A DNA stretch of 64,000 bases, taken from the NCBI GenBank assembly GCA_002973575.1, contig PVEQ01000004.1, positions 62,001-126,000 on the forward strand, written 5' to 3'. Within the stretch, counting starts at the first letter, position 1, and the number at the start of each line of letters is the position of its first letter. This DNA comes from Sediminibacterium magnilacihabitans (GTDB taxonomy: Bacteria; Bacteroidota; Bacteroidia; Chitinophagales; Chitinophagaceae). This document shows, piece after piece, positions 52,190 to 60,852 of the stretch. Made by a program: the position numbers and the translations under genes. A model generated the notes under the pieces. It had not been told where the DNA came from. It searched no databases and saw only the letters and a program-made list of their open reading frames with translations.

Positions 52190-52206
52190 TGTGGCCTCAC
52201 CAGCAA
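52190..52206. repeat. att-like site: imperfect copy of the tRNA-Arg 3' end (left island edge)
   Basis: TGTGGCCTCACCAGCAA matches 15 of 17 bases of TGTGGCCTCGCCAGGAA at 60779-60795, which is the 3' end of the tRNA-Arg gene on the minus strand plus flank. The pair brackets the low-GC cargo region. The gap 52138-52466 also holds the iterons (52320-52363) and the terminator (52414-52455), and I see no gene in it. Confidence 0.6.
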
Positions 52207-52319
52207 ATAATATGTAAAATTAGTGTCTAGATGGGCATCTGATTGATTTTGAGTTGATCCGGCATTGATTATACTTAAATATACATTAAAATATAAATAA
52301 GACACGATAAACCACATTA

Positions 52320-52363
52320 AAAGTGGGCTGGTGTGGGAATAGTGTGGGCTTGATGTGGGTTTG
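52320..52363. repeat. Four 11-bp iterons (RTGTGGGNNTG-like)
   Basis: AAAGTGGGCTG, GTGTGGGAATA, GTGTGGGCTTG and ATGTGGGTTTG follow each other without gaps. The 11-bp period places the GTGGG core on one face of the helix, as at binding sites for integrase arms or regulators. Confidence 0.75.
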
Positions 52364-52413
52364 ACCCGAAGCAAGTACGCTTGAATTACCTGTCATTCGC
52401 CGTACAATGCCCC

Positions 52414-52455
52414 AAAAAAGCCGGAATCTCCACATATCCCTTTTATAGATTCCGG
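52414..52455 (-). terminator. Intrinsic terminator of the AbiE-like operon
   Basis: On the minus strand CCGGAATCT (52455-52447) pairs with AGATTCCGG (52429-52421) over a 17-nt loop, followed by CTTTTTT. It lies 12 nt past the toxin stop codon. Confidence 0.8.
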
Positions 52456-52466
52456 GGTTTGGATGG

Positions 52467-53423
52467 CTACAACCGATCGAGAAACAGATGAATTCGATTC
52501 AGGATTTCATCAAAAGGCGGTTGCCCTTTGTAATACAGAGCTGAGGTCAATTCGTATCGCTTTCGCAAGTTATCCCGTATAGCCCGATCATTCAGCAAAA
52601 AAGCCTCATTTTGGCCCAGAGGGGTTATAAGGTCATCTTTGGGAAACCGCCGCTCTTTATGCTCCTTATAGGCCTCCGTACCGATGAATTCCTGTACGGC
52701 TTTATCAGCTAAGAGTGAATATACGTCGAAATATTGGCGCATATAATTGGTTGCCGTTTCCCCCGTATTCATCTCCTTTCGGAATTTAGTAGCGATCGTT
52801 TGCAGCTTTTCAACAAATGTATACCGGTAGTCATAACAGGCAACATCAAATGCCCGGTTATCAATGATATCAATACCGGAGGTGGCTTTTGCCCTATCCA
52901 ACGCCCAGGAGGTGATGGTTACCGGCATGTTCGGGGTCACGGTGTCATAGCCCGCTTCCAATAAAATGCCGTCTTTCACCCCTCCTATGCTTCCGGTCAG
53001 CTTTTTATAATATAGCCGGATTCCGCCGCTATTGTAATTTTCGGGATTATCAAACAAAGTATCCCGCTCTATGCTTACAATGCCGTCGATCTTTATTTCC
53101 CTTGCCAGTCGATCGTAATAGCTCTTTTTCTTTTGAATATTCGCCGGCTTATTGTTTTTGGGATTTTCATTGATCCCTAGTTCCTTGGGCGGGGTAATAT
53201 GGATATCTATATCCTCGGAAAAACGACTAATCAGGCCAAACCCCTTCGACAATGAAGTGCCACCTTTCAATTGGAAATCATATCCTTGTTGTTTCAATCC
53301 ATATAATACATGCATGATCCAGTAATCTTTTTCGATCAATCCGGAAAGGATATTCGTCTCACTTTCCAGTATCTTCAGCAAGTCTGGAAAATCTTTATGA
53401 TTATGCAGATATATTGATGCCAT
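52467..53423 (-). CDS. AbiEii-type nucleotidyltransferase toxin
   Basis: 318 residues from the ATG at 53423. The nucleotidyltransferase core is FQLKGGTSLSKGFGLISRFSEDIDIHI (in part: LKGGTSLSKG and SEDIDIHI), with further VACYDYRYTFVEKLQTIATKF and a C-terminal helical part. In type IV AbiE systems, AbiEii transfers nucleotides (to tRNA acceptor stems in studied cases) and stops growth or phage. It follows the antitoxin gene (stop at 53429) by 5 nt. The whole pair is read toward the left edge and is closed by a terminator. Confidence 0.88.
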   Translation of the reverse strand: MASIYLHNHKDFPDLLKILESETNILSGLIEKDYWIMHVLYGLKQQGYDFQLKGGTSLSKGFGLISRFSEDIDIHITPPKELGINENPKNNKPANIQKKKSYYDRLAREIKIDGIVSIERDTLFDNPENYNSGGIRLYYKKLTGSIGGVKDGILLEAGYDTVTPNMPVTITSWALDRAKATSGIDIIDNRAFDVACYDYRYTFVEKLQTIATKFRKEMNTGETATNYMRQYFDVYSLLADKAVQEFIGTEAYKEHKERRFPKDDLITPLGQNEAFLLNDRAIRDNLRKRYELTSALYYKGQPPFDEILNRIHLFLDRL

Positions 53424-53428
53424 AATTT

Positions 53429-54001
53429 TTATGACAAAATAGACGAGAATATCTTTTTGGTATTGACTGTTCCCCAATAATCAATCATCTGTTTCAGCTT
53501 CTTTTGGTTCATTTCAGGAGCTTTTCCTCTTACATTCTCCAATATTGCGGACTGGTCCTCCGCAAGATGTTTTAAATTGTTTACAAGGTCAACCAGCAGG
53601 AATTCTTTCGACATCTTTTCAGGTACATACGGTTTACGGACGAAGTGGAAAACCCGGTTTCCCAACCTGAAGTCGCCATGTCTCCTGTAATTATACACCT
53701 TCCTCGTATTATATAACTGTGTTGTTCCCACACCCAGTGAATTGTAATCATTCGGCGACATCACTAAAAACCGATCATCTTTCAAAAAACTGCCTATCAG
53801 TTCATTTTCATCTGCCGGGGCATTTCCAAAGACACTCCGCTTAGGCACATAGTAAAGCCCGCCGGATAACTTTTCCAGCATGCCGTCTTCAACCAATTCC
53901 TGTAAATGTCGGTCTACTGAGGTTGACCATTGTTGAAGATCGATTCGGCGATACACCCCCCCAACTTTGAGCCTATTTTTTAAAGCATCGACAGATTTCA
54001 T
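53429..54001 (-). CDS. AbiEi-type antitoxin / DUF6088 family
   Basis: 190 residues. The N-terminus has a winged-helix-like form (LKVGGVYRRIDLQQWSTSVDRHLQELVEDGMLEKLSGGLYYVPK, shown in shorter words: GVYRRIDL, RHLQELVEDGMLEKL, GGLYYVPK). The middle LVMSPNDYNSLGVGTTQLYN and VFHFVRKPYVPEKMSKEFLLVDLVNNL (in part) match AbiEi/DUF6088 antitoxins. It should neutralise the toxin and repress the operon. The start at 54001 follows closely after the candidate operator at 54027-54059 and a TACTTTTG box at 54006-54013. Confidence 0.85.
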   Translation of the reverse strand: MKSVDALKNRLKVGGVYRRIDLQQWSTSVDRHLQELVEDGMLEKLSGGLYYVPKRSVFGNAPADENELIGSFLKDDRFLVMSPNDYNSLGVGTTQLYNTRKVYNYRRHGDFRLGNRVFHFVRKPYVPEKMSKEFLLVDLVNNLKHLAEDQSAILENVRGKAPEMNQKKLKQMIDYWGTVNTKKIFSSILS

Positions 54002-54005
54002 ACCC

Positions 54006-54059
54006 CAAAAGTAAGAAATTAGTGAAAATGAATGATTTTTTTATAAAATTTCATTCATT
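54006..54059 (-). promoter_or_regulatory. AbiE operon promoter and candidate operator
   Basis: Minus-strand TACTTTTG (54013-54006) fits the -7 consensus, just 5 nt before the start codon, so the transcript may be nearly leaderless. The inverted repeat AATGAATGA / TCATTCATT (54027-54035 and 54051-54059) lies at the -33 region and is a plausible AbiEi binding site. Confidence 0.55.
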
Positions 54060-54110
54060 CAGTTTCATAATATGCTGATTATAAGTATATTAAAAGCGGC
54101 TTAAAATGAT

Positions 54111-54828
54111 GTGTTTACAAATCCCCAGGACTATTGGTTTAAGATGAAAAAAAGGGTGAAAAGCGAGGACGGGTTTGAACTGTCGACAATTTGTCGACAG
54201 TTCAAACTGAAGGCCGGTGATGGTAAAATGAGGGAAACGGATATCGCCAATATAAAAGCCCTGTTTCGCATTATACAGTCCATCCCATCCCCTAAAGCTG
54301 AACCATTCAAACAATGGGCTAGCAAAAGTCGGTTACGAGCGCATTGAGGAAATAAATGACCCCGGGCAGGGTCTTGAAAGAGCAAGGGAGAACTGGAAAA
54401 AGCTGGGACGTAGCGAAAAATGGATACAGCAGCGCATGACCGGGCAGGAAACCCGTAATAAGTTAACCGACTATTGGCAGCAAAATGACATTCAAAAAGA
54501 CGAGGAATTTGCCTTTCTGACCAATATCATCCATCAGGAGTGGACAGGACTTACCGTAAAAGACCATAAGAATCTGAAAGGACTTAAAACACAAAATTTG
54601 CGCGACCACATGAGCGAAGCCGAGCTCATTTTTACTGCTTTAGCTGAATTATCCACCCGGCAGATAGCAGAAAGCGAAAAAGCCAAGGGGTTGGCTCAAA
54701 ATGCAAAAGCCAGCAAAAAAGGTGGGGCTATTGCCAAAAATGCCCGGCTGGAATTGGAGAATAAAACAGGTAAAAGCATGATAACTAATGAAAATTTTCT
54801 GCCCCCTTCGAAAAAAAGGAAAAAATAG
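54111..54828 (+). pseudogene. BRO-family / DinD-like antirepressor gene, broken
   Basis: The text NPQDYWFKMKKRVKSEDGFEL, DGKMRETDIANIKALFRIIQSIPSPKAEPFKQW (in part) is the second half of the phage BRO-N domain. The frame then breaks at the GGG run 54316-54318 (one extra G); the next frame restores LAKVGYERIEEINDPGQG, WIQQRMTGQETRNKL, GLTVKDHKNLKGLKTQNLRDHM and GGAIAKNARLELENKTGKS. The usual N-terminal ~45 residues are missing, with an in-frame stop just upstream of 54111. It is therefore a remnant of a phage or island regulator, with two separate lesions. The intact 3' piece alone is 54436-54828. Confidence 0.8.
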
Positions 54829-54861
54829 ATTCAACATCGAATAGCTTTCTATACTCTCGAT

Positions 54862-55773
54862 TTAGAACAAATTAGCATAGGTATCCCATTTTGATATTCT
54901 TTTACCATTCTCAAAATAGAGTTGATACCCGTCCATAAACTCAATTGCAGGATCACCGTTGTAACTGTGCAATCTTCCTTCTTCGTTTCTCGTAACCAAA
55001 TGAGGAAGTTTTGAAATAAGGCATACATTCTCTAAATAAATAATATCAAACACATCATTTAATAACATCTCTTTTACTCCATTAAAAAGAGGGTCATTAA
55101 TTATTTGCAGCCTCGTCACGAAATCATAAAATATCAAAGAATCATAAGTCCAGGGATAACTTTTCCCACGAAAATCAACATACAGATTTAAGGAAGAAAG
55201 CATGAAATCACCATTGAAAACGGGTGATTCGAAGAAGTATTCTTCCCATATAGAATGGCTGATTTTTTTCTTTACATTGTCAATATTACGCTGATGAAAA
55301 ATGTATTCGAAAAAATTCCCTCCGTCAGATTGAATAATATCGGTTTGAAGACATTTTATGTTTTTGTTTAACATATTATATACTTTGTCAAGAATAACGT
55401 CTTCTTGAGAATCAAAATCATAAGCGATGCTAAAACATTGGTTTGTCAGCATAATGTTTTTCCATACTTCTTGCATTGATCTTCGAATCTTTGATTTGTT
55501 TATACTCTCCTTTCCGGCAAGCTTTTTCAATGTTATTTGAGTCATCAGGCAAGCTAAGGGCGAATCCAGGATGATAATCTCTGGACAAGGAAGCTCCCTA
55601 AATTTGAAAAGGTTTTCGAGCACAATTAAACAACTATTTTCGTATTCATCATTATTGCGACAACAAGATCGATTCTTCCAATCTCTTCGAACGCAATCAT
55701 ACAAATCCTTCTGTTCTATAGAAAATTCAGATATCATAGCAAAAGTGTTTTTAAAATGGCAGTTCAGGATCAA
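54862..55773 (-). CDS. Unknown protein with DUF6745-like C-terminus
   Basis: 303 residues; an internal ATG at 55737 would give 291 and avoid the 23-bp overlap with the upstream gene. PEIIILDSPLACLMTQITL, the FYDFVTRLQIINDPLFNG stretch, YLENVCLISKLPHLVTRNEEGRLHS (in part) and DPAIEFMDGYQLYFENGKR read like the DUF6745 family, in which the same order (CDSP, FYDF, RPxxVxRDxxGRLH, GPAL...DG..LY..HG) occurs. No catalytic motif is evident. It is in operon with the 347-residue gene and points away from the WYL regulator. Confidence 0.6.
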   Translation of the reverse strand: MILNCHFKNTFAMISEFSIEQKDLYDCVRRDWKNRSCCRNNDEYENSCLIVLENLFKFRELPCPEIIILDSPLACLMTQITLKKLAGKESINKSKIRRSMQEVWKNIMLTNQCFSIAYDFDSQEDVILDKVYNMLNKNIKCLQTDIIQSDGGNFFEYIFHQRNIDNVKKKISHSIWEEYFFESPVFNGDFMLSSLNLYVDFRGKSYPWTYDSLIFYDFVTRLQIINDPLFNGVKEMLLNDVFDIIYLENVCLISKLPHLVTRNEEGRLHSYNGDPAIEFMDGYQLYFENGKRISKWDTYANLF

Positions 55774-56794
55774 TTATATTCTCATCTTGTTGTAAGATAT
55801 TCCCTAGTGGATCATCCATAGTGTAATAACCTAGGGTTTTCGAACCAGTATCTTCTTCTATAATCATTTTCAATTGAAGCGGAAGTTCAATAATTTCTAA
55901 GTTTCGCATAGCAAAATCTTTTTTTAAGTTAAGCATAAGTACATTTTCCGAAAGATTGGCCCTAATTAGCGAGCTATGCGTATGAAAACGGCTATGAGAA
56001 AGAACCATATCGAATGAATTTCGTGTACAATACAAAATAATACCACACCACTGACCTTCATTACTTTCAAAAATGATATTAAGAAAACAACCATCTCCAT
56101 ACTCATAACATTCAATCTTAATAATAAAAAAATGTGTCAAGGAAATAAAGACAGGCAAACTCTTTCCTCTCTCAAATAGTTTATGCCAGTCTTTGTCGTC
56201 AGCGGTATTTTTTGATCTGACATCTATCTCATGCTGCAGATATGCCTCAACAAATGGAATCTGTAGTTGTTGTAACTTGGCATAAATCTGCAAATTAATT
56301 TGCAGATTGTATTCCCCAGTAAATCGCATAAACTCGCTTAGCAGGTTATCACTATCATCCATAGATTTTTGTAACGCTTCTATTGCTTCTTCTATTGTTA
56401 TTTTTCCCGGGCAGTAAAGTTCCTCGTAAACAAAAACGCAATACGAATGGGTATCAATACCCATATTGGGTAATACATCATCAAAAGGAACCTTACATCG
56501 CTTCCCCATCTCCATCAACTCTTTGTTGGAAAGTATTGGCGCCATTAAATAATCTGAGGCGCAATCAGTTAGCAATCGCATAAATCGGTTGCTTGTATCT
56601 TTGAGATCACCTGAATTAAGTGCTGCGGCTTGAGCAAAACTTGATAGCTGGAAAGAGTTAGGAAGTCCAAATCTTGTTAATATTTCTCTTTCAAGGTCAT
56701 AAATGGGATCCCATTCTTCTATGGCAAAATTATCTTTGCGATGAATAGATTTCAGTAATGAAATATATTTTTCACAGATTAAACATATACTCAT
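55751..56794 (-). CDS. Unknown island protein
   Basis: 347 residues, no recognised domain. The N-terminus has a CLICEKY cysteine pair; the middle is helical and acidic (ITIEEAIEALQKSMDDSDNLL, in part), followed by FISLTHFFIIKIECYEYGDGCFLNIIFESNEGQW (in part), a strand-rich domain, and a C-terminus LGYYTMDDPLGNILQQDENI. The 3' end overlaps the next gene by 23 bp. It starts 61 nt from the divergent WYL gene, so the two may share a regulated promoter. Codon usage is AT-rich like the rest of the island. Confidence 0.6.
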   Translation of the reverse strand: MSICLICEKYISLLKSIHRKDNFAIEEWDPIYDLEREILTRFGLPNSFQLSSFAQAAALNSGDLKDTSNRFMRLLTDCASDYLMAPILSNKELMEMGKRCKVPFDDVLPNMGIDTHSYCVFVYEELYCPGKITIEEAIEALQKSMDDSDNLLSEFMRFTGEYNLQINLQIYAKLQQLQIPFVEAYLQHEIDVRSKNTADDKDWHKLFERGKSLPVFISLTHFFIIKIECYEYGDGCFLNIIFESNEGQWCGIILYCTRNSFDMVLSHSRFHTHSSLIRANLSENVLMLNLKKDFAMRNLEIIELPLQLKMIIEEDTGSKTLGYYTMDDPLGNILQQDENIIDPELPF

Positions 56795-56855
56795 TTTTAG
56801 TATATTTATTAAACAAAGCTATCCCCTCTCGCTCTTACCTATTTAAAGCAGCAAT

Positions 56856-57875
56856 ATGCCGGTGAATAAATCATTCATGGAACGGGTAATAATTTTTGAT
56901 CAATGTCTTCAGCGAAAGCAAAAAGCATGGACAAAAACAATGTTAATAGAAGAAATTAATGCAAAATTGGATGAAAAGGGAGCTTTTGACAGGCGAAAAA
57001 TAAGAAGTACAGGAATCAGCGATAGTACATTCTATGGTATTGTTAAGTATTTAAGAGAACAATACGAAGCGCCCATCGAATGCAAAAAAGGAGAGTATTC
57101 TTATTCTGAAGAATTTCACTTTTCGTATTCTTCACTTACTGTCAAAGAAGCTGAAAGGCTTTCAAAAATGATTGTTTTACTGAAAGAATTAGATGGTGTT
57201 TCCTTGATGGCTGATTTTGAAGAAACGATAGCACGACTTAATTCTGTGGTACAATTACGTTTAGAGGGAAACGATAAAATTATCCGATTTGAACATCATA
57301 CCGTTCAACGAGGAATGAAAGAGTATTTCAATAAGTTATTTGATGCGATCGCATCCAGAACAGAAATCAAAATTCAATATCAGCGTTTTTCCACAGGAAT
57401 TGTGAAGACTTTTAATTTTTACCCGTATCTCCTAAAAGAATCCCACAATCGTTGGTATTTACTTGGCAAAGTAGTGGGAAAGAAAGATATGATTACATTG
57501 GCACTAGACCGAATTGAACAAATAACCCTTTTAACAGAGGAAGCTTTTACGATAGATGATTTTGACCCCGATGTCTATTTTTCTCATACAATCGGTATAA
57601 CAGTAAACAACAATCTCAGCCCTGAATTAGTTAAAATTCGAGTTCATAAATCTCAAGTCCCTTATTTTGAAACACAGCCGTTACACTCGTCTCAACAGAA
57701 AGAAAAGAGTTATGCAAATGGCGACATCCTTTTGAGTTTAAACGTAAAAATTAATATTGACTTGAAACTCTTGTTAATGCAGTATGCAGATGTTTTGGAA
57801 ATAGTAAGCCCTCAATCTCTAAGGGATGAGTTGTATGAAGCGCTTAAAATTGGACTTACGAACAATAAAATATAA
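56856..57875 (+). CDS. WYL-domain transcriptional regulator
   Basis: 339 residues. The N-terminal winged HTH (~1-85) includes RVIIFDQCLQRKQKAWTKTML and ISDSTFYGIVKYLREQYEAPIEC (in part). The WYL domain (~160-235) has FNFYPYLLKESHNRWYLLGKV with R-W-Y-L at ~198-202 and LALDRIEQITLL. The C-terminus (FDPDVYFSHTIGITV and onward) is WCX-like. WYL proteins sense nucleic acids or nucleotides, and several (BrxR, CapW types) control phage-defence genes. Here it starts a plus-strand unit with the NPG protein and DUF2779, and diverges from two unknown genes. Confidence 0.88.
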   Translation: MPVNKSFMERVIIFDQCLQRKQKAWTKTMLIEEINAKLDEKGAFDRRKIRSTGISDSTFYGIVKYLREQYEAPIECKKGEYSYSEEFHFSYSSLTVKEAERLSKMIVLLKELDGVSLMADFEETIARLNSVVQLRLEGNDKIIRFEHHTVQRGMKEYFNKLFDAIASRTEIKIQYQRFSTGIVKTFNFYPYLLKESHNRWYLLGKVVGKKDMITLALDRIEQITLLTEEAFTIDDFDPDVYFSHTIGITVNNNLSPELVKIRVHKSQVPYFETQPLHSSQQKEKSYANGDILLSLNVKINIDLKLLLMQYADVLEIVSPQSLRDELYEALKIGLTNNKI

Positions 57876-57944
57876 TAAGCGATAAGCCAATCCTTCAAAT
57901 AGGGCGGAGTGTCGACACCTAATTTTGACATTAAAAATAAATCT

Positions 57945-58682
57945 ATGAATCAACAAAACAACCCTTGGGAAGAGCTGCTTAAAGGGCCAAATTTCTACTT
58001 CAAAAAGGACAAAGAAATTATCGACAAACATAATAGCAATCTTGGCCCTCACCCATTATTTATTGATCTTGAGCTTTTACCAGAACCCTATATTGGCAAT
58101 CCCAATGCGAATGTTGTCATACTTCTTACAAATCCAGGATCAAATGGTAACGAAAAGGAAGATTATAAAATTCATGGGCTAGTAGATGCTATAAAAAATA
58201 ACCTAACGCATTCCAACAAAGAATACCCTTATTATTATTTACACCCGGATTTTATTCAAAAAACAGGTGGAGGTAGATGGATTTATGAGAGAATGAAGGA
58301 TATAATTGAAAAAGAAGAAATTGATGCCAAAGAATTGTCCAAAAAAATTTTCGCCATTCAGTTACATCCATATCATTCTGCTAGGTTTACTAGGTTTAAA
58401 AAAATCAATGACTTGGAAGGGCAAAAATATTCAATGGAGTTGCTATCACTGGCAATAGAAAGAAAAGCATTGATTGTATTTACCAGAACTCAAAAGGAAT
58501 GGGATAAGGCTTACGAGCAATTTGATTCAAACACTAAAGAATTAAAAAAAATACCCGGGTTAAATTTTATTGAACTTCAATACAGAACAGGTAAAACTCC
58601 AAGGAGTCCCTATTTTAATAAAAAACATATGAAGCAGGAAGATTATGAAAAATTAAAAGAAGCACTCTTAAGAAGCCTATAA
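57945..58682 (+). CDS. Unknown protein with UDG-superfamily-like motifs
   Basis: 245 residues from the ATG at 57945 (a GTG at 57909 is an alternative). NANVVILLTNPGSNGNEKEDY (in part) with N63-P-G, EYPYYYLHPDFIQKTGGGRWIYERM (in part), FAIQLHPYHSARF with H141-P-Y-H-S, and LIVFTRTQKEWDKAY are seen. The NPG strand end and the HPYHS loop resemble uracil-DNA-glycosylase-fold proteins, where the first motif activates water and the second enters DNA. That is a pattern match only; I do not recognise the exact family. It follows the WYL gene at 69 nt and precedes DUF2779. Confidence 0.55.
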   Translation: MNQQNNPWEELLKGPNFYFKKDKEIIDKHNSNLGPHPLFIDLELLPEPYIGNPNANVVILLTNPGSNGNEKEDYKIHGLVDAIKNNLTHSNKEYPYYYLHPDFIQKTGGGRWIYERMKDIIEKEEIDAKELSKKIFAIQLHPYHSARFTRFKKINDLEGQKYSMELLSLAIERKALIVFTRTQKEWDKAYEQFDSNTKELKKIPGLNFIELQYRTGKTPRSPYFNKKHMKQEDYEKLKEALLRSL

Positions 58683-58784
58683 AAAAATTGATAGGGAATA
58701 AAATTCTATGTCTGAAATACTGTATTTGAAAATATCTCATTCAAATACCGGGAAGGCGACAGAATGATAATAAAATGCTGACGA

Positions 58785-60653
58785 ATGATACTCTCGAAGT
58801 CTGACTATAAAATAGCGACCTCGTGTTGCAAGAAGCTGGTTTACAAAAAAGCTTCATATCCCACCATGAATGATGGCAATGAGTATATGGAAATGCTTGC
58901 GCAGGGGGGATATATTGTTTCGAAGTATGCTCAACTCCTTTACCCAATGGGCATTGAAGTCAAAGGAAACTCTATTGAGGAAGCCATTCACATCACCAAG
59001 ACTCTATTAAAAGACAATGAATATATAACGCTATTTGAAGCGACTTTTTTATCAGATGGAAAGGTTATAAGAACTGACATCTTAGAAAAGAAAAAGGACG
59101 TATTGCATATTATTGAGGTAAAATCAAAATCGTATGACAGCGATGATGAGGATAATCCAAAGAAAAAATTTGAAGAATATATTGAAGATGTAGCCTATCA
59201 AATATTAACAGTGAAAGAGGCTTGTCCCGACTATGAAATTCACCCCTATTTACTACTACCCGACAAAGCTAAACGAACTACTATCGATGGATTGGCAGGA
59301 TGGTTTACAATAACCAAAATGGAAGATGAAAGATTTGAAATAGAAGAATTACCTGCACAAGGTGCAATAAAATTTCAAAAACCTTTAATTGAATTTAAAT
59401 ACGAAAACAGTATTGACAAGGGGAAATATATTGACCTGCTTCAAAATGACAATCTATTAACGCTAATGCCTGTTGATAAAGAAGTGAACGAAATGATGAA
59501 TACTGTTGTAAGCAAAGCCAATCTGTATCTTAATATTCTTGAAAATGGCATTCAGCCGAAAGATTATTCTATAAATAAAAATTGCAAGAACTGTGAATTC
59601 AACATAGGGGATGAAATGGGAAAGAATGGCTATCGCGAATGCTGGAAAGAACTTACAGATATCAGCCCGCACATTTTTGACCTATATTTTGGAGGCGCCA
59701 TTGGCAGTCCCTCAAAAGGGTTTTATTTAAATGAATTGATTAATAACAAAAAGGTGTCATTTTTCAATCTTGATATTGAGCGGTTTAAAAACAGTAAAGG
59801 AGAATACGGCTCAAGAGGAGAACGGCAACTTTTACAGTTTGAAAATACCAAGATCAATTCAGAATGGATTAGCAGCGAAATGAAAAATGCTTTGAGCAGG
59901 CTGAAATATCCTCTACATTTTATAGATTTTGAAACATACACGGGTGCTATTCCTTATCACAAGGGAATGCGCCCATACGAATTTATTGCTTTCCAATGGA
60001 GTTGCCATACCATACAAAAACCAGGAGATGCCCCACAGCATTCGGAATTTATCAATAGAGAATATAATTTCCCGAATTTTCGCTTCGCAGAACAACTTAT
60101 GCAAGCAATAGGAACAACTGGTACCCCTGTCATGTGGTCTTCATTTGAAAACACAATACTAAGAACCATCTTGGAGCAAATGGATGTCTACAATTACCAA
60201 AATGATACATTACGTGAATGGCTCACCGGTATTACAACTGACAAAAAGCAAAATAGAACTGGCCGTTTTGTTGACATGAATGAGTTAACGCTAAAATATT
60301 ATTTTCATCCTTATATGAAGGGAAAAACCTCGATCAAAAAGGTATTACCTGCCATTTGGAACAATAATCCCTATCTACATGCTATCCCTTGGTTTGAACA
60401 ATATGTGCCGGCTGATGAAACAACATTAAATCCTTACGATACACTTGCTCCGATTATTGGTGAGCTTGAAAAAGAAGAAGTTGTGAAAGATGGTACAGGT
60501 GCGATGAGAGCTTATAATGAAATCATGTTTGGATCGGCCAACAATCCTGAAAGAAGAGAGCAGCTGATCCAGCTACTATTACAGTATTGCGAACTTGACA
60601 CAATGGCCATGGTGATTATTTGGAAGTACTGGATGGATAAATCTGGGTTGTAA
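58785..60653 (+). CDS. DUF2779 protein: Cas4-like plus DEDD-exonuclease-like domains
   Basis: 622 residues. The N-terminal part looks like a Cas4/AddB-type nuclease: TDILEKKKDVLHIIEVKSKS has D98, E111 and K113 of a PD-(D/E)XK site, and Cys 14/15, 267, 270 and 286 (CCKK; NCKNCEF; ECW) could bind an Fe-S cluster. The C-terminal part is DUF2779 with an exonuclease-like signature: HFIDFETYTGAIPY (D381, E383), MWSSFENTIL, RFVDMNELTLKYY and YCELDTMAM (D605). It is thus probably a dual nuclease. It follows the WYL regulator and NPG-motif genes on the same strand. No helicase is adjacent. Confidence 0.82.
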   Translation: MILSKSDYKIATSCCKKLVYKKASYPTMNDGNEYMEMLAQGGYIVSKYAQLLYPMGIEVKGNSIEEAIHITKTLLKDNEYITLFEATFLSDGKVIRTDILEKKKDVLHIIEVKSKSYDSDDEDNPKKKFEEYIEDVAYQILTVKEACPDYEIHPYLLLPDKAKRTTIDGLAGWFTITKMEDERFEIEELPAQGAIKFQKPLIEFKYENSIDKGKYIDLLQNDNLLTLMPVDKEVNEMMNTVVSKANLYLNILENGIQPKDYSINKNCKNCEFNIGDEMGKNGYRECWKELTDISPHIFDLYFGGAIGSPSKGFYLNELINNKKVSFFNLDIERFKNSKGEYGSRGERQLLQFENTKINSEWISSEMKNALSRLKYPLHFIDFETYTGAIPYHKGMRPYEFIAFQWSCHTIQKPGDAPQHSEFINREYNFPNFRFAEQLMQAIGTTGTPVMWSSFENTILRTILEQMDVYNYQNDTLREWLTGITTDKKQNRTGRFVDMNELTLKYYFHPYMKGKTSIKKVLPAIWNNNPYLHAIPWFEQYVPADETTLNPYDTLAPIIGELEKEEVVKDGTGAMRAYNEIMFGSANNPERREQLIQLLLQYCELDTMAMVIIWKYWMDKSGL

Positions 60654-60693
60654 AATGAATTGTCATAATAGCTTCTGATTATTTATCTGTAAA

Positions 60694-60713
60694 TTGACAC
60701 CAGTTTTGACACC
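60694..60713. repeat. Direct repeat TTGACACC x2 near the tRNA end of the island
   Basis: TTGACACC occurs at 60694-60701 and 60706-60713 (12-bp period), between the DUF2779 gene and the tRNA-Arg. It may be a leftover of recombinase arm sites. Confidence 0.55.
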
Positions 60714-60780
60714 ATGTTTTAACGAGATCACACAAATCATTGACTTACAGCAAATTGCGATAGTTATATTTTTGATATTG

Positions 60781-60852
60781 TGGCCTCGCCAGGAATCGAA
60801 CCTGGATCTGGAGCTTCGGAAACTCTTATACTATCCATTGTACTACGAGGCC
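60781..60852 (-). tRNA. tRNA-Arg (anticodon CCG)
   Basis: Read on the minus strand the acceptor stem is GGCCTCG/CGAGGCC (60852-60846 with 60788-60782), with a discriminator A at 60781. The D-arm GTAC/GTAT, anticodon loop TTCCGAA (CCG, reading CGG) and T-arm CCAGG-TTCGATT-CCTGG all form. The CCA end is not encoded. The anticodon stem has one A-C mismatch at its outer pair. The 3' end is used as the island attachment site (15/17 copy at 52190-52206). Confidence 0.95.

Follow-up and report, generated by a model that had tools for sequence, protein, structure and literature searches.

A locus encoding a divergent, predicted Brig-type glycosylase, a WYL regulator and a DUF2779 protein on a tRNA-associated island of Sediminibacterium magnilacihabitans

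The window analysed here, a stretch of 64,000 nucleotides from contig PVEQ01000004.1 of Sediminibacterium magnilacihabitans, carries a locus for a divergent Brig-type glycosylase, and no description of its gene set was met in the open-licence literature searched. Three plus-strand genes, separated by spacers of 33 and 102 bp, lie in a row at 56856–60653 and encode a WYL-WCX regulator, a glycosylase-like protein and a DUF2779 protein (Table 1), an arrangement already recognised, with the WYL regulator in first place, in an earlier sequence-only reading. We give a probability of roughly 55 per cent to the interpretation that these island-borne genes form an anti-phage module built around the glycosylase, in which base excision controlled by the WYL regulator would be followed by degradation of the DNA by the DUF2779 protein.

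Table 1. Features of the locus and its surroundings (window coordinates)
Feature	Coordinates	Strand	Evidence
WYL-WCX transcription regulator, 339 aa	56856–57875	+	Pfam WYL 2.9e-12, WCX 6.8e-9
Brig-type DNA glycosylase, predicted uracil-DNA glycosylase (UDG) superfamily	57909–58682	+	NCBIfam NF047634 antiviral_Brig1, UDG fold matches, motif alignment
DUF2779 protein, 622 aa	58785–60653	+	PF11074 4.6e-28; PADLOC Cas4b/Cas4 weak; active-site conservation
Open reading frame (ORF) P4, 347 aa, candidate Brig-associated	55751–56794	-	homologues adjoin Brig-like or glycosylase-like genes elsewhere
ORF P5, 303 aa	54862–55773	-	DUF6745 match weak, E=0.007, under Pfam cut-off
AbiEi/AbiEii type IV toxin-antitoxin pair	52467–54001	-	AbiEii Pfam 9.9e-27; PADLOC AbiEi 1.8e-84, AbiEii 7.5e-70
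Small ORF, 130 aa	54436–54828	+	PADLOC PDC-S13 4.1e-47, profile positions 146–274 of 286
Inserted island, 8.6 kb	52190–60778		comparison with relative G010; end repeats
tRNA-Arg (ccg), insertion site	60780–60852	-	ARAGORN; G010 homology resumes at 60775

The product of the middle gene had no match in Pfam. Residues 52–161 matched the NCBIfam model NF047634 (E=4e-8, 33 bits), which makes it a distant relative, as judged from sequence, of Brig1, the anti-phage alpha-glucosyl-5-hydroxymethylcytosine (5hmC) DNA glycosylase (Hossain et al. 2024, PMC11078745). The same model was weakly matched by the relatives in loci L008, L009, L033, L034 and L037, and was not matched by those in L031 and L132, which had been found by sequence. 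When an AlphaFold2 model of the glycosylase, built from three sequences, was compared with the PDB, nearly all of the top matches were UDG-superfamily enzymes. The best VIA-align match was 4ZBY (Z 6.2, 147 residues, root-mean-square deviation 4.8, a Z value that can be unspecific taken alone), the structure also reported as the best structural match of Brig1 itself (PMC11078745). Because the list of matches is consistent and the sequence match to the Brig1 family is independent of it, the predicted placement in the UDG superfamily is firm, and the UDG-like fold first suspected from motifs is borne out. Sequence searches of the PDB with the glycosylase, the DUF2779 protein and P4 gave nothing usable, and relatives of these three proteins were not found in scans of viral contigs. 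Matches to the glycosylase gene at E ~7e-4 in genomes of the same genus were discarded, one of them (in G000) being antisense to an Lrp-type gene, and identification of the protein as a thiamine-phosphate synthase (E=0.17) was rejected. Phage family-A DNA polymerases (phiLo, 9qhs, and an uncultured Caudovirales PolA) also matched the UDG-like fold model, which suggests that UDG-like domains are fused to phage polymerases.

The motifs N75-P76-G77 and Q151-L-H-P-Y155-H156-S157 in this protein are real and conserved. The catalytic Asn of the NPG motif (N75) is present in all 11 aligned family members, and the pocket aromatic W124 is Trp in eight and Tyr in three. The residue at the position of Q151 is Glu in L009 (Leucothrix), L033 and L034, the Glu carriers including Rhizobium and a contig labelled as phage, Asp in G726, and Gln in the window, in the other Chitinophagaceae-like sequences and in Streptomyces. 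This position was equated with E147 of Brig1 and D127 of Brig3 by motifs and spacing, not by superposition. As the E147Q change impairs immunity by Brig1, the base preference or the catalytic arrangement of the Gln branch probably differs from that of Brig1. The homologues begin just before N-P-W, so translation probably starts at the ATG at 57945 (M13), giving a protein of 245 aa. One of the Glu carriers, L034 (10729–11436 in the phage record MT836197), has bacterial-looking neighbours, making the phage label doubtful.

In its sequence core, UDG fold, top match to 4ZBY, Trp near the pocket and defence-island setting the window protein resembles Brig1. It differs in having Gln for E147 and Gly at the likely position of Q81, and its partners are the WYL regulator and the DUF2779 protein, whereas the neighbour of Brig1 is an ADP-ribosyl glycohydrolase. 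Brig3-BapA, a 5hmC glycosylase plus deglucosylase (PMC13160076), is similarly a glycosylase with a partner gene, and the spacing of N50, W100 and D127 in Brig3 (50 and 27 residues) is close to that of N75, W124 and Q151 (49 and 27). However, the window protein has Gln for D127 and Gly for E55, and no ASCH match was detected in P4. Restriction glycosylases are sequence-specific restriction-modification enzymes of another fold. What the window locus would share with restriction glycosylases (cited in PMC12707154) is base excision in the service of restriction. Neither a WYL-DUF2779 nor a Brig-DUF2779 system was found described in the open-licence literature. The earlier statement that no named system with this gene set was known nevertheless has to be amended, since two systems with this mechanism, Brig1 and Brig3, already have names.

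The third protein matched PF11074 with 98.5 bits against a gathering score of 23.3, and its active sites were assessed in an alignment of 59 DUF2779 homologues. The N-terminal half contains D98 (83% conserved), E111 (75%) and K113 (80%), together with a conserved Q139, and the Cys residues 14, 267, 270 and 286 are 97–100% conserved. Although this is the Cas4-like set of four Cys with D, E-x-K and Q, the match to Cas4 profiles was weak. In the C-terminal half, D381 and E383 (98–100%), D497 (100%) and Y601 and D605 (97%) form the D-x-E, D and Y-x3-D pattern of DEDDy enzymes. The protein is therefore read as a fusion of two parts, a Cas4-like Fe-S PD-(D/E)XK nuclease and a domain resembling DEDDy exonucleases, and the two domains predicted in the sequence-only reading are both present with intact sites, D497 and Y601/D605 being added to complete the second. 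DUF2779 had previously been assigned to the RNase H-like superfamily, within its 3'-5' exonuclease clade, and combined with a DUF83 (PD-(D/E)XK-like) domain (PMC3985635).

Other genomes offer further observations on this family. In L025 (1–3175, G486) a DUF2779 gene and a gene for McrC (PF10117, 3e-57) run in the same direction and overlap, so that DUF2779 is also associated with a system restricting modified cytosine. In L029 (6845–9490, G580) the gene for a short DUF2779 protein overlaps two others, one encoding a NERD-like nuclease and one a protein whose 'GINPS' motif is UDG-like. The latter protein was assigned to UDG by the motif and matched by neither Pfam nor NCBIfam; an AAA/McrB-like gene is divergent to this cluster, which is possibly an independent pairing of a glycosylase-like protein with DUF2779. 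These single cases hint at a wider link between DUF2779 and defence involving modified DNA. In one Bacteroidota family (L104, L107, L109, L113 and L115–L119), DUF2779 was found in a conserved cluster with genes that by eye were SSB-, GldE-like, MurB-like, M48 peptidase-like and PurB-like.

The WYL and WCX domains of the regulator were matched, while its N-terminus gave no match to a helix-turn-helix model; the BrxR/CapW type is defined by a winged helix-turn-helix, a WYL domain and a C-terminal domain. WYL regulators of defence systems are established (PMC9122588, PMC9122589, PMC9122601), and the WYL regulator PafBC is triggered by single-stranded DNA (PMC11804915).

The window holds an insertion of about 8.6 kb, as G010, a near relative with 93–97% DNA identity on both sides, lacks exactly 52207–60774 and joins the equivalent of 52206 directly to that of 60775. 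Vertical inheritance of the locus was rejected in view of this empty site, and the tRNA-linked defence island suspected earlier is confirmed and sharpened to its borders. The point of insertion is the 3' end of the tRNA-Arg gene, and an imperfect short repeat, TGTGGCCTC[A/G]CCAG, is present at 52190 and 60779. A search for direct repeats found no long att repeat, and no integrase gene was found inside the 8.6 kb. The GC content is 36.7% in the island and 46% in the flanks, with 33–36.5% in the P5, P4, WYL, glycosylase and DUF2779 genes and 42% in the AbiE and S13 genes.

A WYL gene was found within two positions of the DUF2779 gene in 13 of 59 cases; the corresponding figure for the remaining genes of these loci was 59 of 727 (Fisher p=0.0014 and odds ratio 3.2, in a post hoc test that includes related, non-independent loci). 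Several of these pairs, from several phyla, are only 1–10 bp apart, and the pair is also carried by plasmids of Campylobacterota and Betaproteobacteria. The unnamed pair found in Bacteroidota and these two groups is like the window in that a WYL regulator adjoins a Cas4-like/DEDDy DUF2779 protein, but elsewhere the two are usually adjacent with no glycosylase in between. Brig-like genes are rare, found in one of 395 sampled genomes of the phylum with a protein query alone and in four of 202 genomes of the family with a profile search. In L008, from a metagenome-assembled genome (MAG), P4 and a Brig-like gene are followed by a convergent WYL gene that is truncated where the contig stops, and DUF2779 was not found in this MAG; in L132 about 30 bp separate the Brig-like gene from P4 downstream of it, and in L151 and L152 the Brig-like gene stands alone. 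In L009 (1–5263, a Leucothrix MAG) the Brig-like gene is two genes from a gene whose product is a fusion of a UvrD helicase with a DnaQ-type exonuclease (PF00580, PF00929).

P4 has no known domain: it gave no meaningful match in Pfam or in the PDB and no detected match to an ASCH family, BapA being marked by ASCH beta-barrel domains with D101, and its predicted model (pLDDT 39) was unusable. Members of the P4 family adjoin Brig-like genes, or lie close to them, in three lineages. Elsewhere they adjoin a DUF1643 protein (in the closely related L130 and L131) or a weakly deoxyinosine-glycosylase-like protein (L138), or are found alone (L133–L137). Overall, roughly half of the P4 loci show a link to genes that are Brig-like or possibly glycosylase-like, and P4 is a candidate Brig-associated protein.

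In the mechanism that we infer for the module, the WYL regulator would adjust expression upon infection, probably by sensing nucleic acid, and the glycosylase would flip out and excise a modified pyrimidine base of the phage DNA. The DNA would then be broken at the resulting abasic sites, and the DUF2779 protein, through its Cas4-like Fe-S nuclease and DEDDy 3'-5' exonuclease-like domains, would degrade the broken DNA. P4 may widen or aid target recognition, by analogy with BapA for Brig3. The targets proven for Brig proteins are phages with modified cytosine; uracil-rich phage DNA is a possible target. A more specific version, in which a Gln-type Brig glycosylase with a base specificity of its own would, under WYL control, supply the DUF2779 Cas4/DEDDy nuclease with abasic phage DNA and P4 would represent a new Brig-associated family, is put forward tentatively.

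Several points weigh against such a module. The exact trio was met only in this window (n=1) among the genomes and loci searched. No Brig-like gene was found beside DUF2779 in the other loci (~60 DUF2779 loci), and DUF2779 was not found in three other carriers of Brig-like genes (Ferruginibacter, Leucothrix and G726), at least one of which is a MAG and possibly incomplete. The 102-bp gap separates the glycosylase gene from the DUF2779 gene, and the conserved DUF2779 cluster in one Bacteroidota family suggests a vertically kept cellular, apparently housekeeping role. For the glycosylase, a score of 33 bits is far under the curated cut-off of 230 bits, so by the equivalog test the protein is not a Brig1; it also has Gln151 in place of the Glu expected of a Brig1 equivalog, and its structural model is of moderate confidence (mean pLDDT 58, pTM 0.65). 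Finally, Brig1 works without the apurinic/apyrimidinic endonuclease, RecBCD or RecJ of E. coli. A dedicated nuclease is thus not obligatory, and the role of the DUF2779 protein could be to enhance the defence or to act independently of it. The proposal that a base recogniser and an end-processing nuclease form one defence unit gains from the UDG fold, the similarity to a glycosylase family with proven anti-phage activity, the intact nuclease, the WYL regulator and the island, but the three genes, expected to co-occur, were not found together in the other genomes searched, and the three-gene unit is weakened accordingly.

Judged by gene content, the locus looks like two modules meeting, one of WYL and DUF2779, known from several phyla, and one of a Brig-like glycosylase and P4. 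These may simply stand side by side, the first a self-sufficient nuclease system between whose genes the glycosylase merely landed; we regard this as a serious though less probable explanation. It fits the many genomes with WYL-DUF2779 and no Brig, and the occurrence elsewhere of Brig-P4 or solitary Brig genes without DUF2779, the trio being seen only here. Against it, the three genes are on the same strand with short gaps and similarly low GC, and a WYL gene adjoins Brig and P4 in L008 too. WYL is a common element of the recurring pairs, which in the window lie closely spaced on a single island and resemble each other in composition.

It is improbable that the genes form a host cassette for DNA repair or base maintenance, with a uracil- or damage-type glycosylase and an end-processing exonuclease induced by DNA damage via WYL. 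The UDG fold, the housekeeping-like synteny of DUF2779 in one lineage and the control of DNA-damage responses by the WYL regulators PafBC and SiwR (PMC11804915, PMC10693628) are compatible with such a cassette. The locus is, however, patchy and rare (four of 202 family genomes), lies on a tRNA island with AbiE and is absent from the close relative G010. Abortive infection, in which the DUF2779 protein would be an effector aimed at RNA or at the host and the gene set would kill the cell, seems very unlikely: DEDDy enzymes do include RNases, but Fe-S Cas4-like domains are usually DNA nucleases, and the glycosylase points to a DNA target. The adjacent AbiE genes would suit it, as would the WYL protein CapW, which controls a cell-killing immune system (PMC9122588).

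The remainder of the island consists of the AbiEi/AbiEii pair, identified as a neighbour of the trio in the sequence-only reading and supported here by Pfam and PADLOC, a PDC-S13-like fragment, P5 and P4. The start of P5 overlaps the end of P4, this pair (54862–56794) lying outside the three-gene row but being of relevance to the system. The ORF at 54436–54828 corresponds to the C-terminal half only of the PADLOC candidate PDC-S13, and may be truncated or a stand-alone part.

Brig glycosylases are a young class, and the locus offers two candidate partners for them, the widespread, uncharacterised DUF2779 family and the unannotated P4 family. Both characterised Brig systems (Brig1 and Brig3-BapA) have T-even phages as their targets; the Gln in the catalytic pocket of this divergent Bacteroidota branch suggests that it is directed at different modified bases, in different phages.

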